From assembly GCA_016283985.1 (NCBI GenBank), contig JAEENZ010000088.1:1-5014 (forward strand): a stretch of 5,014 nt of DNA, read 5' to 3'. The notes under the pieces are model-generated. The model saw only the letters and a list, made by a program, of their open reading frames with translations, made no database searches and was not told the origin of the DNA. Every line of letters starts with the position of its first letter. The stretch's first letter is position 1. The position numbers were made by a program, and so were the translations under genes. The DNA comes from Bacteroidales bacterium (GTDB lineage: Bacteria; Bacteroidota; Bacteroidia; Bacteroidales; UBA932). Below, piece by piece: positions 571 to 5,014 of this stretch.

Positions 571-643
571 TGTCAAAGGGGGCGGTTCTGATTGACACAT
601 TCGGTAATAAGAGGCGTGTCAACGGGAACCGTCCCCAGTGACA
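571..643. repeat. Intact 73-bp palindromic repeat (REP-like), copy 1
   Basis: The arms 571-598 and 616-643 are 28 nt each and match as inverted repeats at 22 of 28 positions, around a 17-nt loop (599-615). The inner 7 bp (TTGACAC/GTGTCAA) and the CGGTTC/GAACCG block pair perfectly. Positions 573-629 recur as a direct repeat at 2847-2903 with only three mismatches, and 591-629 is identical over 39 nt. GGGGACGGTTC/GAACCGTCCCC palindromes bounded by TGTCA/TGACA are, to my recollection, a common intergenic repeat style in Clostridia and relatives. The right arm contains GGGAACCGTCCCC (624-636), an unoccupied version of the site used by the IS110 element downstream. Confidence 0.85.
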
Positions 644-2786: not shown

Positions 2787-2863
2787 CGGAACTGTCCCCC
2801 TGTCAACGGGGACTGTCAATGGGGACGGTTCTGTCAACGGGGACGGTCAACGGGGACGGTTCT
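2787..2863. repeat. Tandem cluster of TGTCAACGGGGACGG units
   Basis: Four successive units, starting near 2801, 2814, 2832 and 2846, read (T)GTCAA[C/T]GGGGAC with variable GGTTCT tails and a spacing of 13-18 bp. An inverted partner, GGAACTGTCCCC, lies at 2788-2799. The last unit is also the left arm of palindrome copy 2. The cluster looks like serial partial duplication of the repeat arm. It lies between the minus-strand gene and the IS. Confidence 0.8.
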
Positions 2864-2903
2864 AATTGACACATTCGGTAATAAGAGGCGTGTCAACGGG
2901 AAC
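2845..2903. repeat. Palindromic repeat copy 2, left part, split by the IS
   Basis: This aligns base for base with 571-629 of copy 1: left arm 2845-2872, the same 17-nt loop, then GTGTCAACGGGAAC (2890-2903). Identity stops abruptly after 2903, where copy 1 continues CGTCCCC. That break marks the left end of the IS110 element. The rest of the arm is found at 4377. Confidence 0.85.
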
Positions 2904-2927
2904 ACCGCACGAAGCGGCAAAAAAGCC

Positions 2928-3125
2928 ACGCACACAATGGATGAAAAGGTGGTAGACTGGCGCTGCGGAGCAAGGCCGGGGGACGGTTTGCCACCAAGAG
3001 TGTGCGTCTGTTATAGAACATGGTTAAAGGTCGCCTTTGAGTACACAGAATTGCAAGGATGGATTGCGTGCATTAAACTCTCTTTGTCAGGCGACCGGCT
3101 CCGCATTTACTTAAATTGTGCGGAG
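2928..3125 (+). ncRNA. Candidate IS110 bridge (guide) RNA
   Basis: In IS110 elements such as IS621, the left-end leader encodes a bridge RNA whose two loops pair with target and donor DNA. Here a basal stem pairs 2928-2935 (ACGCACAC) with 3000-3007 exactly. Inside it 2948-2954 pairs with 2989-2995 (GGTGG/CCACC core). The enclosed loop ends in GGGGACGGTT (2979-2988), the reverse complement of AACCGTCCCC. That sequence occurs whole in palindrome copy 1 (627-636) and as AACCGTCCC across the occupied site, so it fits a right target guide. The 5' side of the loop, ACTGGCGC (2956-2963), matches left target ACGGGAAC at five positions plus one wobble. Downstream, 3053-3059 can pair with 3081-3087. 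GCATTAA (3070-3076) in that loop equals the IS right end (4369-4375), fitting a left donor guide. GTGCGG (3118-3123) complements CCGCAC at the left end (2905-2910). The RNA ends and promoter are not determined. Confidence 0.7.
3099..3125 (+). promoter_or_regulatory. Hairpin covering the transposase ribosome binding site
   Basis: CTCCGCA (3099-3105) pairs perfectly with TGCGGAG (3119-3125), around a 13-nt AT-rich loop. The 3' arm includes the start of the GGAGGTGG ribosome binding site. The stem could limit transposase translation, form the 3' stem of the guide RNA, or do both. Confidence 0.5.
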
Positions 3126-3129
3126 GTGG
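3121..3129 (+). promoter_or_regulatory. Ribosome binding site fixing the transposase start at 3132
   Basis: GGAGGTGG lies just before ATG 3132. The frame is open back to an ATG at 2937, but the 65 extra codons run through the guide-RNA structure and resemble no part of the IS110 family. The family's N-terminus begins right at YCCCGLDVH. Confidence 0.85.
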
Positions 3130-3131
3130 GT

Positions 3132-4286
3132 ATGGACGTATTACTGTACTGCTGCTGCGGATTGGATGTTCACCGGGACATGATCGAAGCCTGCATCCAG
3201 CGCGGCATTGACGGGGAACCGGAGATTATTCGGCGCACCTTCGGGACGAGAAAGGCGGAACTGCAAAATCTCACGAAATGGCTTGAGGAGTATGACTGTT
3301 TCACGGTAGCGATGGAAAGCACGGGAGTCTATTGGATGCCCGTCTATGAGACGCTAGAAACGAAGACAAGATACCTGGAGAATCTCTGGGTGGTGAACGC
3401 AAACCACATGCGAAATCTGCCCGGACGGAAGAGCGATGTGGCCGATGCGGAATGGATAGCAACCTTGCTTCGGCATGGACTTTTGGAGAAGAGCTTTGTC
3501 CCACCGATTGCAATCCGGGATCTGCGGGAATGTTCACGGCTGCATCGGATCTTCGTCCAGGAGCGGGCCCGGTATGTGAACCGCCTGGAGAAGTTTCTTC
3601 AGGCGCACGGCTTTAAGTTTTCCTCCGTTATGTCGGACATTCTCTCGGTCACGGGCAGAAAGTTCCTGGAGGTACTGAAGGACACCGGTGAGTTGACGAT
3701 GCAGGATGTGGAGAGGAACGGGCGCAGATTGAAGAAGTCTGCGGAAGAGGTTGCCTCTGCGGTCTGTGGAAGCCTGACAAAAGCGGAGCAGCGCCTGCTA
3801 GGGCAACTGCTCCGCAAGGTGGACTCCTGTCAAGAAGATGTTCGCAGCATCCTCGAAGACATGCGCTTGCTTTCCTCCCACTACCAAGAAGAGTTAGCAA
3901 TCATCGACTCCGTTCCCGGCTTCGATGAAGAGTCCGCTATGGAGATTATAGCAGAAATCAGTGCCGAACCGCCAGAGTATTTTTCGTCTGCGGAAAGATT
4001 GTGTTCTTGGGCAGGCGTTGTGCCGCGCAATGATGAGAGCGCCGGAAAGGTCAAATCCAGAAAGACCATGCATGGGAATCGGTTTGTGAAAGCTATTTTG
4101 TGTCAGGCAGCTTGGGCTGCGGTGAGAACACGTCATTCACCGTTTCATGAATGGTTCTGGAGTCATCGTCCTAAGCTCGGTCAGAAAAAGGCTATCATTG
4201 CAGTTGCCCGGAAGCTCCTGAAGCTCATTTATCACTTATTGAACACGAGGCAGAGATACCGGCCTCCGTTGGTTGCCGCTGTCTAG
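3132..4286 (+). CDS. IS110-family transposase (DEDD RuvC-like plus serine domain)
   Basis: The product has 384 residues, close to the usual 330-420 of the family. The N-terminal DEDD (RuvC-like) domain shows G10-L-D12-V-H, then M61-E62-S-T-G-V-Y-W, then K100-S-D102-V-A-D105, supplying D12, E62, D102 and D105 in family order. A helical, Arg/Lys-rich linker follows at about 125-265. The C-terminal Transposase_20-type domain opens with DSVPGFDEESAMEI, then CSWAGVVPRNDESAGKVKSR, where Ser303 of ESAGK is the expected nucleophile, then HGNRFVKAILCQAAW. Enzymes of this class recombine an excised circular element into target DNA using a bridge RNA encoded by the same IS, cutting through a covalent serine-DNA link with RuvC-domain assistance. 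The frame is unbroken and no key residue is missing. The start at 3132 is set by GGAGGTGG; translation may be held down by the hairpin over that site. Confidence 0.95.
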   Translation: MDVLLYCCCGLDVHRDMIEACIQRGIDGEPEIIRRTFGTRKAELQNLTKWLEEYDCFTVAMESTGVYWMPVYETLETKTRYLENLWVVNANHMRNLPGRKSDVADAEWIATLLRHGLLEKSFVPPIAIRDLRECSRLHRIFVQERARYVNRLEKFLQAHGFKFSSVMSDILSVTGRKFLEVLKDTGELTMQDVERNGRRLKKSAEEVASAVCGSLTKAEQRLLGQLLRKVDSCQEDVRSILEDMRLLSSHYQEELAIIDSVPGFDEESAMEIIAEISAEPPEYFSSAERLCSWAGVVPRNDESAGKVKSRKTMHGNRFVKAILCQAAWAAVRTRHSPFHEWFWSHRPKLGQKKAIIAVARKLLKLIYHLLNTRQRYRPPLVAAV

Positions 4287-4306
4287 CTTTCATCTTCTTT
4301 TGCTTT

Positions 4307-4324
4307 GCCCCGCTGAGTCGGGGC
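4307..4324 (+). terminator. Hairpin after the transposase gene
   Basis: GCCCCG (4307-4312) and CGGGGC (4319-4324) form a 6-bp stem with a 6-nt loop, 20 nt after the TAG. No U-tract follows, so this could be a weak terminator or a structural element of the IS right end. Confidence 0.4.
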
Positions 4325-4376
4325 TGGATAAATGCGCCTTGCGGACAAACCATCCTGCTTTACTTTTCGCATTAAC

Positions 4377-4390
4377 CGTCCCTCATTACT
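4377..4390. repeat. Palindromic repeat copy 2, right part beyond the IS
   Basis: CGTCCC, then TCATTACT, continues the arm that breaks off at 2903. Joined, the two parts give GTGTCAACGGGAAC+CGTCCC, matching copy 1 (616-635) base for base, after which the sequences diverge. This is the reconstructed empty site of the IS. Confidence 0.75.
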
Positions 4391-4397
4391 TGCCCAT

Positions 4398-4403
4398 AAG
4401 GAG
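4398..4403 (+). promoter_or_regulatory. Ribosome binding site of the MATE gene
   Basis: AAGGAG with a five-base spacer to ATG 4409. It lies outside the IS, so translation signals survived the insertion even if the promoter did not. Confidence 0.85.
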
Positions 4404-4408
4404 CCTTT

Positions 4409-5014
4409 ATGATCTCACAAACCTTTGATTGGCGAGACTTTCTGCGCCGGGTGGCCGTCATCGCCATCCCGGTGGCCCTGCAGAACCTGCTGACCACCAC
4501 CGGCAGCATGGTGGACACCATGATGATCGCCTCCCTGGGCCAGACCCAGCTGGGGGCCGTGGGCCTCTGCGCCCAGTTCTCCTCCCTGATGTTCAGCTGC
4601 TACTGGGGCTTCATCGGCGGGGGCATGCTCTTCATCTCCCAATACTGGGGGGCCAAGGACCACGACGGCATCAACCGTTCCTACGGCCTGACCCTCAGCT
4701 GCATGATGACCGTGGCCGTCGTTTTCTGCTGCCTGGCCACCCTCTGCCCGAGGGCGGTGATGCGCCTGTATACGGATAAAGAGGCCCTGCAGGAGGTAGG
4801 CGAACAGTATCTGCGCATCGTGGGCTTCAACTATCCCCTCATGGTGCTGAGCATGGCCATGGCGACCCTGCTGCGCTGCACGGAGCGGGTGCGCATCCCC
4901 CTCTATGGCTCCATCGTCTCCGTCTTTGTCAATGTGGGCCTCAACTATGTGCTGATCTTCGGGCATCTGGGCCTCCCCGCCATGGGCGTGCGGGGCGCGG
5001 CCTTGGCCACGGTG
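4409..5014 (+). CDS. MATE-family efflux transporter, N-terminal part (3' end outside window)
   Basis: The first 202 residues are visible and the frame is open to the window end; MATE proteins usually have about 450 residues with 12 membrane helices. The start of the family is well preserved: AVIAIPVALQNLLTTTGSMVD at about 16-36, with Pro21 and Asp36, then the glycine-rich LGQTQLGAVG turn. Hydrophobic helices follow at roughly 14-34, 48-75, 93-115, 130-155 and 163-185, with basic inter-helix residues, for example RCTERVRIP. MATE exporters expel cationic drugs, toxins or metabolites across the cytoplasmic membrane in exchange for Na+ or H+; the substrate cannot be told from this half. AAGGAG sets the start. 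The IS ends only 32 bp before the ATG, so any original promoter further up now lies on the far side of a 1.47-kb insertion. The gene was missed by closed-ORF logic because no stop lies in the window. Confidence 0.92.
   Translation, partial: MISQTFDWRDFLRRVAVIAIPVALQNLLTTTGSMVDTMMIASLGQTQLGAVGLCAQFSSLMFSCYWGFIGGGMLFISQYWGAKDHDGINRSYGLTLSCMMTVAVVFCCLATLCPRAVMRLYTDKEALQEVGEQYLRIVGFNYPLMVLSMAMATLLRCTERVRIPLYGSIVSVFVNVGLNYVLIFGHLGLPAMGVRGAALATV

Follow-up and report, generated by a model that had tools for sequence, protein, structure and literature searches.

An IS110-type element inserted at a palindromic repeat in a Bacteroidales genome, and a predicted bridge RNA in which the right target guide precedes the left

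The stretch of DNA analysed here (the window; 5,014 nucleotides of contig JAEENZ010000088.1, from a Bacteroidales bacterium) carries an IS110-type insertion sequence to the right of an array of repeats, a second copy of which lies uninterrupted elsewhere in the window. The neighbours of the element, at 4409-5014 and 1-501, encode a MATE family transporter (PF01554) and a MoaF C-terminal domain protein (PF17409). A frame-broken remnant at 1725-1916 (HSFRKWYATE...) looks by eye like a tyrosine recombinase C-terminus and adjoins an AT-rich stretch with a gene at 2026-2652, on the minus strand, that has weak zinc-ribbon and TPR matches. The element, its ends and its surroundings comprise the following features.

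572..642, no strand: second repeat copy, with the uninterrupted site GGGAACCGTCCCC
2800..2872, no strand: repeat (REP) array with GGGGACGGTTCT units, left of the element
up to 2900: left target, ...CAACGGG, the left flank of the element
2901..2902, plus strand: core dinucleotide AA at the left junction (register taken from relatives; junction sequence)
2903..4375, plus strand: IS110-type insertion sequence, 1473 bp, with one core copy at its end; L001 is the same element with other flanks
2953..2958, plus strand: possible -10 promoter element TAGACT, picked by eye in the alignment and TATACT/TATAAT-like in relatives
3132..4286, plus strand: IS110 DEDD transposase, 384 aa, with D12, E62, D102, D105 and S303
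4369..4375, plus strand: right end GCATTAA (left donor), with the core AA at 4374-4375
4376..4382, plus strand: right target CCGTCCC

The transposase matches PF01548 (1.9e-25) and PF02371 (1.7e-17) and combines a DEDD RuvC domain with a Transposase_20 domain bearing the catalytic serine. Among 42 aligned proteins D12, E62 and D105 are present in all 42, S303 in 41 and D102 in 40. The G--P----SG motif of the IS621/ISEc21 type is not found in the window protein, position 304 being A in 40 of the 42 and G in ISEc21 and L088, and its identity to the ISEc21 protein is 18%. Of 8000 proteins scored in a protein search, 5589 reached E 1e-60. The non-coding stretch is longer upstream of the transposase (229 nt) than downstream (89 nt), as is characteristic of IS110 elements with a bridge RNA, and a sigma-70 scan of 2850-4420 found no promoter. 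The longest repeat shared by the outer 60 nt of the two ends measures 6 bp, its copies lying 41 and 8 nt in from the termini, and the right end obeys a rule seen across relatives, namely TTTTC (or TTTC) followed by 7 nt of which the core comes last. The closest match to the window, L001, comes from an Oscillospiraceae MAG of sheep rumen; 1463 of 1473 aligned columns are identical between the two elements, while the flanking DNA differs. Since the left flank (...CAACGGG-AA) and the right flank (AA-CCGTCCC) both carry the AA core, the occupied site reads GGGAACCGTCCC.

The repeat copy around 627 contains the occupied-site sequence in one unbroken piece. Counts of AGAACCGTCCCC, the site spelled by both of the guides described below, came to 13 in G001, 6 in G002, 7 in G004, 103 exact sites in the 1.8-Mb genome G005, 5 in G007 and 11 in G008; it was found in none of G003, G006 and G009, and the reversed pattern in none of the nine genomes. 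Palindromic repeats with GAACCGTCCCC lie beside Y1_Tnp genes with frames of 252-265 aa, on both sides in L110 and L112 and on one side in L111. Shorter Y1_Tnp frames occur at five loci, and the three of these that were scanned (L105, L107, L109) showed no such repeats. The long Y1_Tnp proteins, for which the analysis itself gives a Pfam match and a length, we take to be RAYTs. The target repeats are accordingly read, from their sequence and setting, as REPs of the RAYT type with variable arms and GAACCGTCCCC in common; a segment common to RAYT-associated REPs would explain a guide that stays fixed while transposases diverge to 51% identity. Insertion into repetitive palindromes is a trait shared with the REP-targeting IS110 elements ISPa11, ISPpu9, ISPpu10 and IS621 (PMC1525189, in part), and the available text of PMC1525189 contains no mention of GAACCGTCCCC.

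Taken as a whole, the explanation that best fits the leader, and one we regard as highly probable, is that it encodes a bridge RNA extending over about 2963-3105, whose predicted parts are listed here.

2964..2971, plus strand: outer stem P1, 5' strand TGCGGAGC, forming 8 pairs in the window with 3098-3105
2974..2977, plus strand: closing helix of the target loop, 5' strand GGCC
2979..2988, plus strand: right target guide (RTG) GGGGACGG with the core complement TT at 2987-2988 (covariation, 25 loci, p=2e-5)
about 3011..3018, plus strand: left target guide (LTG) TTATAG with core AA at 3017-3018, reading in the sense of the left target and placed by comparison of 30 loci
3022..3025, plus strand: closing helix of the target loop, 3' strand GGTT
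3029..3035, plus strand: closing helix of the donor loop, 5' strand GGTCGCC, with 7 of 7 pairs in seven leaders and compensatory changes
3070..3076, plus strand: left donor guide (LDG) GCATTAA, the same 7-mer as at the right end (4369-4375)
3090..3096, plus strand: closing helix of the donor loop, 3' strand GGCGACC
3098..3105, plus strand: outer stem P1, 3' strand GCTCCGCA

The closing helix of the target loop (2974-2977/3022-3025) has 4 of 4 pairs in all seven leaders that share the window's guide, with compensatory changes. A consensus fold of 20 leaders (RNAalifold) contains this helix, the hairpin belonging to it and the helix of the donor loop; each of the 16 consensus pairs has changed on both sides in one or more of the 20 sequences, and the leader thus has the target and donor loops of an IS110 bridge RNA. 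P1 is absent from this consensus; pairing of the P1 type is the best run in 10 of the 20 sequences, the others having a longer run elsewhere, and its counterpart in L007 is TGCAGGG/CCCTGCA. Rfam holds no family for the leader, the best match (E=1) falling below the gathering score. The 3' strand of P1 (CTCCGCA) could pair instead with TGCGGAG at 3118-3124, in the ribosome-binding region of the transposase; a similar alternative is visible by eye in L002, L003 and L004 and is not obvious in L006 and L007. Such pairing might serve as a switch, with guide RNA on one side and translation of the transposase on the other.

The ten leader bases at 2979-2988, GGGGACGGTT, complement the right target over nine bases, after which G2979 may form a G-T wobble with the T at 4383 in the flank. 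The complementary sequence spans the right junction as AACCGTCCC at 4374-4382 and stands in the second repeat copy as AACCGTCCCC at 627-636, so that the exact complementarity to both places, already reported in an initial annotation of this DNA, was recovered. Scored against 25 right targets, the window guide matches its own at 7 of 7 positions, a value reached by none of the 24 others. The sequence GGGACGG / GGGACGGTTTG occupies one place in the leaders of the window, L001, L002, L004, L005, L006 and L007, the bases next to GGGACGGTTTG differing and the transposases being 51-99% identical. Right flanks were read where the contig reaches, and CCGTCCCC follows the same right end in L002, L008 and L020, as well as in L003 with one extra A before it; the guide is absent from the fetched stretch of L003, L008 and L020. 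The initial annotation had named an identical loop in an unrelated target as evidence that would count against a guide. A search for such a case yielded one copy, L001, whose other site is near-cognate: its sequence AACCGGCCCC is one mismatch from the guide, and its right target CCGGCCCC has one mismatch in 8.

The comparison proposed at that time, of loop bases with the target of each copy, was carried out on a wider set of relatives. The 103 stretches collected for it, several of them covering the same place twice, gave 68 distinct leaders with the window included; one large set of these has in common, as judged by eye, the pattern GGTCG-[8-10 nt]-TTGG-hairpin-CCCGT-[6-10 nt]-GACC. For the right target, 25 of the 32 rows anchored on the TTTTC/TTTC + 7 nt rule were used (L001 and L002 were dropped as members of the window's target group, L037 for want of a right flank, L026 for a flank of 2 nt, and L066, L076 and L098 for a poor end match). 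Loop bases and targets covary across these 25 loci, the window and 24 relatives: the complement of the 5' guide scores 4.08 of 7 against its own right target and 3.08 against those of others (p=2e-5), and shuffled own targets score 3.42, the observed value being reached by 1 of 5000 shuffles, or 0 of 5000 without the window. The match is exact over GAGTCTC in L038, and in 7 of the 25 loci (L009, L036, L044, L070, L071, L097, L102) the own score does not exceed the row average. The right-target signal is significant only after anchoring by a rule found in the same loci, the anchorless longest-match test giving p=0.16 (51 of 200 shuffles). In members on viral contigs (IMG/VR; L022, L023, L024, L025, L032) the guide is consistent with the left flank (A)GTGAT, while the right flank TAATGTAG, common to L023 and L024, matches it poorly.

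The longest-match tests used 32 loci with anchors picked by eye, of which 30 served for the left flank (L039 and L042, with short upstream sequence, were left out) and 27 for the right (L026, L027, L037, L041 and L046, short downstream, were left out). The 3' half of the loop shares with its own left flank a longest match of 8.03 nt, compared with 6.18 for the flanks of others (p=5e-5) and 6.15 for shuffled own flanks (reached by 0 of 200); matches of at least 7 nt were found in 25 of 30 loci and in 30% of cross pairs. Some of the longest matches lie off the junction, for example in L026, L029, L045, L070 and L071, and in the window the left-target pairing amounts to GAA, one base past the core, the nearby repeat reading TAGAA. 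The combinations expected from the IS621 order were not significant (5' half with left flank, p=0.12; complement of the 3' half with right flank, p=0.90). The left target guide does not stand 5' of the right target guide; it is the reverse order that finds support, at 5e-5 for the left and, anchored, 2e-5 for the right.

The donor loop carries a repeat of the right-end 7-mer on its 3' side, exact in 21 of 25 loci (17 different 7-mers) where the ends had been selected for the match; with unselected ends, which give the fairer figure, it is exact in 14 of 25, against 1.7% of cross pairs (p=2e-5). The search for a right donor guide gave no significant match (p=0.074). Three further combinations also came out above chance. 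The 3' half in the same sense matched downstream sequence with p=0.00085, or 0.02 without L097, and the 5' half in the same sense with p=0.008, or 0.21 without L097. The complement of the 5' half scored 6.07 against upstream sequence, with 5.58-5.59 for the controls (p=0.008; 0.011 without L097), an effect that is small and unexplained. L097, on a Variovorax plasmid, has a second leader copy about 200 nt downstream of the transposase match of the first, its right end and the next left end lying about 15 bp apart. Comparison between loci thus shows conserved paired loops, three guide segments covarying with target or donor, and the order of the guides, the roles of these segments being predicted from the alignments.

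Which role 2979-2988 plays was weighed against other readings. The same bases occur in host DNA close by: the 9-mer AACCGTCCC or its complement is found five times in the window, guide and target included, two of them within the array of repeats immediately to the left of the element, where GGGGACGGTTCT units lie about 120-160 bp left of the guide segment. The match alone therefore cannot separate a guide from a piece of host repeat captured in the leader with no guide role, a doubt the initial annotation had itself raised and one that the comparison of relatives settles. The resemblance to the repeat stands; against capture, the segment is flanked by conserved bases and keeps its position in the RNA of elements whose transposases are only 51% identical, and relatives with other targets carry other sequence there, which tends to match their own right target. 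We consider captured repeat DNA the least probable of the alternatives, and extremely so. A choice of repeat by the DNA-binding part of the transposase, with the RNA match a by-product of insertion history, is marginally less improbable. The transposase itself is thought to pick the target in REP-targeting elements of the IS3 family (PMC1525189, in part), but guide and right target vary together between loci, and both IS621 and ISEc21 have been shown to be RNA-guided (PMC11208160, PMC11187229, each in part).

The remaining alternative concerns geometry and, though very unlikely, is the least so of the three. In the initial annotation the segment formed the 3' side of a loop with 2948-2954/2989-2995 as its closing stem, inside an outer stem 2928-2935/3000-3007, which would leave the left guide on the 5' side as in IS621. 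Both stems can form in the window, whose minimum-energy fold comes close to them and pairs these regions, and the inner stem is also complete in L001. Neither is conserved. The inner stem keeps 7 of 7 pairs only in the window and L001, falling to 5 in L002, 4 in L004, L005 and L007 and 2 in L006; the outer stem has 8 of 8 pairs in the window, 6 in L001 and L004, 5 in L002, 4 in L005 and L006 and 2 in L007. Covariation favours the other helices listed above, and the left flank is matched by the 3' half (p=5e-5, 30 loci) and not by the 5' half (p=0.12). Because its loop is not conserved, the argument from a position on the 3' side fails; the covarying target loop opens at 2974, so the segment is the first (5') guide, with its partner downstream. 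The central proposal, a target guide in an IS110 leader, held, the position being kept in relatives and the own right target matched better than others. By this comparison of leaders and flanks, 2979-2988 is the predicted bridge-RNA target guide for the right half-site rather than captured repeat DNA.

The element resembles IS621 in having its RNA in the left end, in the sense of the transposase and with a target and a donor loop, in a core dinucleotide within the guides, in its DEDD and serine residues and in its REP targets (PMC11208160, PMC11208158, each in part). IS621 has its left guide at nt 50-58, ahead of the right guide at nt 77-80 (PMC11208158, in part), a CT core and a G after the serine, whereas in the window the right guide comes first, the core is AA and an A follows the serine; the donor guide lies on the other side of its loop, and the transposase has 384 aa compared with 328 aa in the solved IS621 chain. 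With ISEc21 the element shares an upstream non-coding region holding two target-complementary segments, but in the opposite order, the ISEc21 seekRNA having its bottom-strand match 5' and its top-strand match 3' (PMC11187229, in part). As a control, ISEc21 was run through another pipeline (matches of at least 6 nt), which returned the top-strand match CCCTGG at 128, another top-strand match at 83 and, in the same sense, only GGAAGC at 148. For the left guide of ISEc21, inspection by eye gave AGCGA, 5 nt long and situated upstream of 128, in agreement with the available text of PMC11187229. This control being only partly clear, the comparison rests on the published order.

In its order the element is instead like the IS1111 seekRNAs of ISEc11, ISPa11 and ISKpn4, in which the top-strand complement precedes the bottom-strand match, an order taken solely from print (PMC11187229, in part). 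It is unlike IS1111 elements in its location of the RNA and in its ends: as a rule these have the RNA downstream of the transposase and subterminal inverted repeats of 7-17 bp (PMC11208160, in part), whereas the window RNA would lie upstream and the longest end repeat is 6 bp. By sequence comparison, then, the right guide is first in an RNA placed upstream of the transposase, and the predicted donor guide is also on the opposite side of its loop relative to IS621. In a literature survey on guide order that covered text, we did not find the IS110 location combined with right-guide-first order; Extended Data Fig. 10c of PMC11208160 presents the guides of six further elements, and priority is uncertain.

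A second set of leaders (25 distinct), whose left flank ends in CAT, forms a sister branch with loci within L019 and L047-L095 (for example L073, L089 and L093; L075, L090, L094 and L095; L056-L059). There the 3' half again matches its own left flank better than others (8.92 vs 6.99, p=5e-5), much of this match falling inside the left end according to multi-copy families, and the 5' half does not (p=0.47, n=24); right-target (p=0.56) and donor (p=0.24) signals were not significant. Many of these copies are interrelated, so the following counts do not represent independent events. The left end was located by motif in 27 of 38 copies, and a leftward frame of at least 50 codons starts exactly at CAT in 16 of 26 copies, compared with 5 of 52 control frames (17 of 27 with L081, which reaches the contig end after one codon). 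At the right end a complement of the ribosome-binding site (Shine-Dalgarno) of at least 5 nt is present in the first 20 nt in 26 of 35 copies, against 22% of shuffles, and 31 of 38 copies have GGAGG where the first guide lies, a motif absent from this zone in all 24 loci of the first set. Read leftward, the left end has GGAG 4-10 nt before ATG in 15 of 27 copies and AGGA within 13 nt in 11 of 27. These sequences suggest that the sister branch inserts in the gap that separates a ribosome-binding site from the start codon, its left end supplying a substitute site. A narrow literature search found no start-codon targeting by IS110 elements in print.

In the mechanism that we envisage, the RNA would be made and bound by the transposase, the 3' guide of the donor loop (3070-3076) would pair with the element's own right end, and the circular element would be guided to GAACCGTCCC sites within the repeats, where it would recombine at AA in the manner of IS621. 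Since both loops are reversed with respect to IS621, the most economical arrangement would be an unchanged synaptic complex in which the DNA is rotated by 180 degrees against the RNA; strand exchange would then begin on the bottom strand of the element.

Guide order has been tied to family, and it has been suggested that IS110 and IS1111 families may work differently (PMC11187229, in part). An IS110 location with the IS1111 order uncouples the two traits, so that experiments could ask which of the two determines the polarity of strand exchange. The window group would pair mainly through its long right guide. Our broadest reading, to which we give an even chance, is that a wide IS110 branch with an upstream bridge RNA and both loops reversed relative to IS621 represents a third arrangement with reversed strand polarity and specialised guides, the sub-branch of the window being directed to the conserved heart of RAYT-associated REPs, and its sister sub-branch mimicking a ribosome-binding site and inserting before the start codons of many genes. 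With a transposase far from those tested so far (18% identity to ISEc21), these elements may provide a separate starting point for programmable recombinases.
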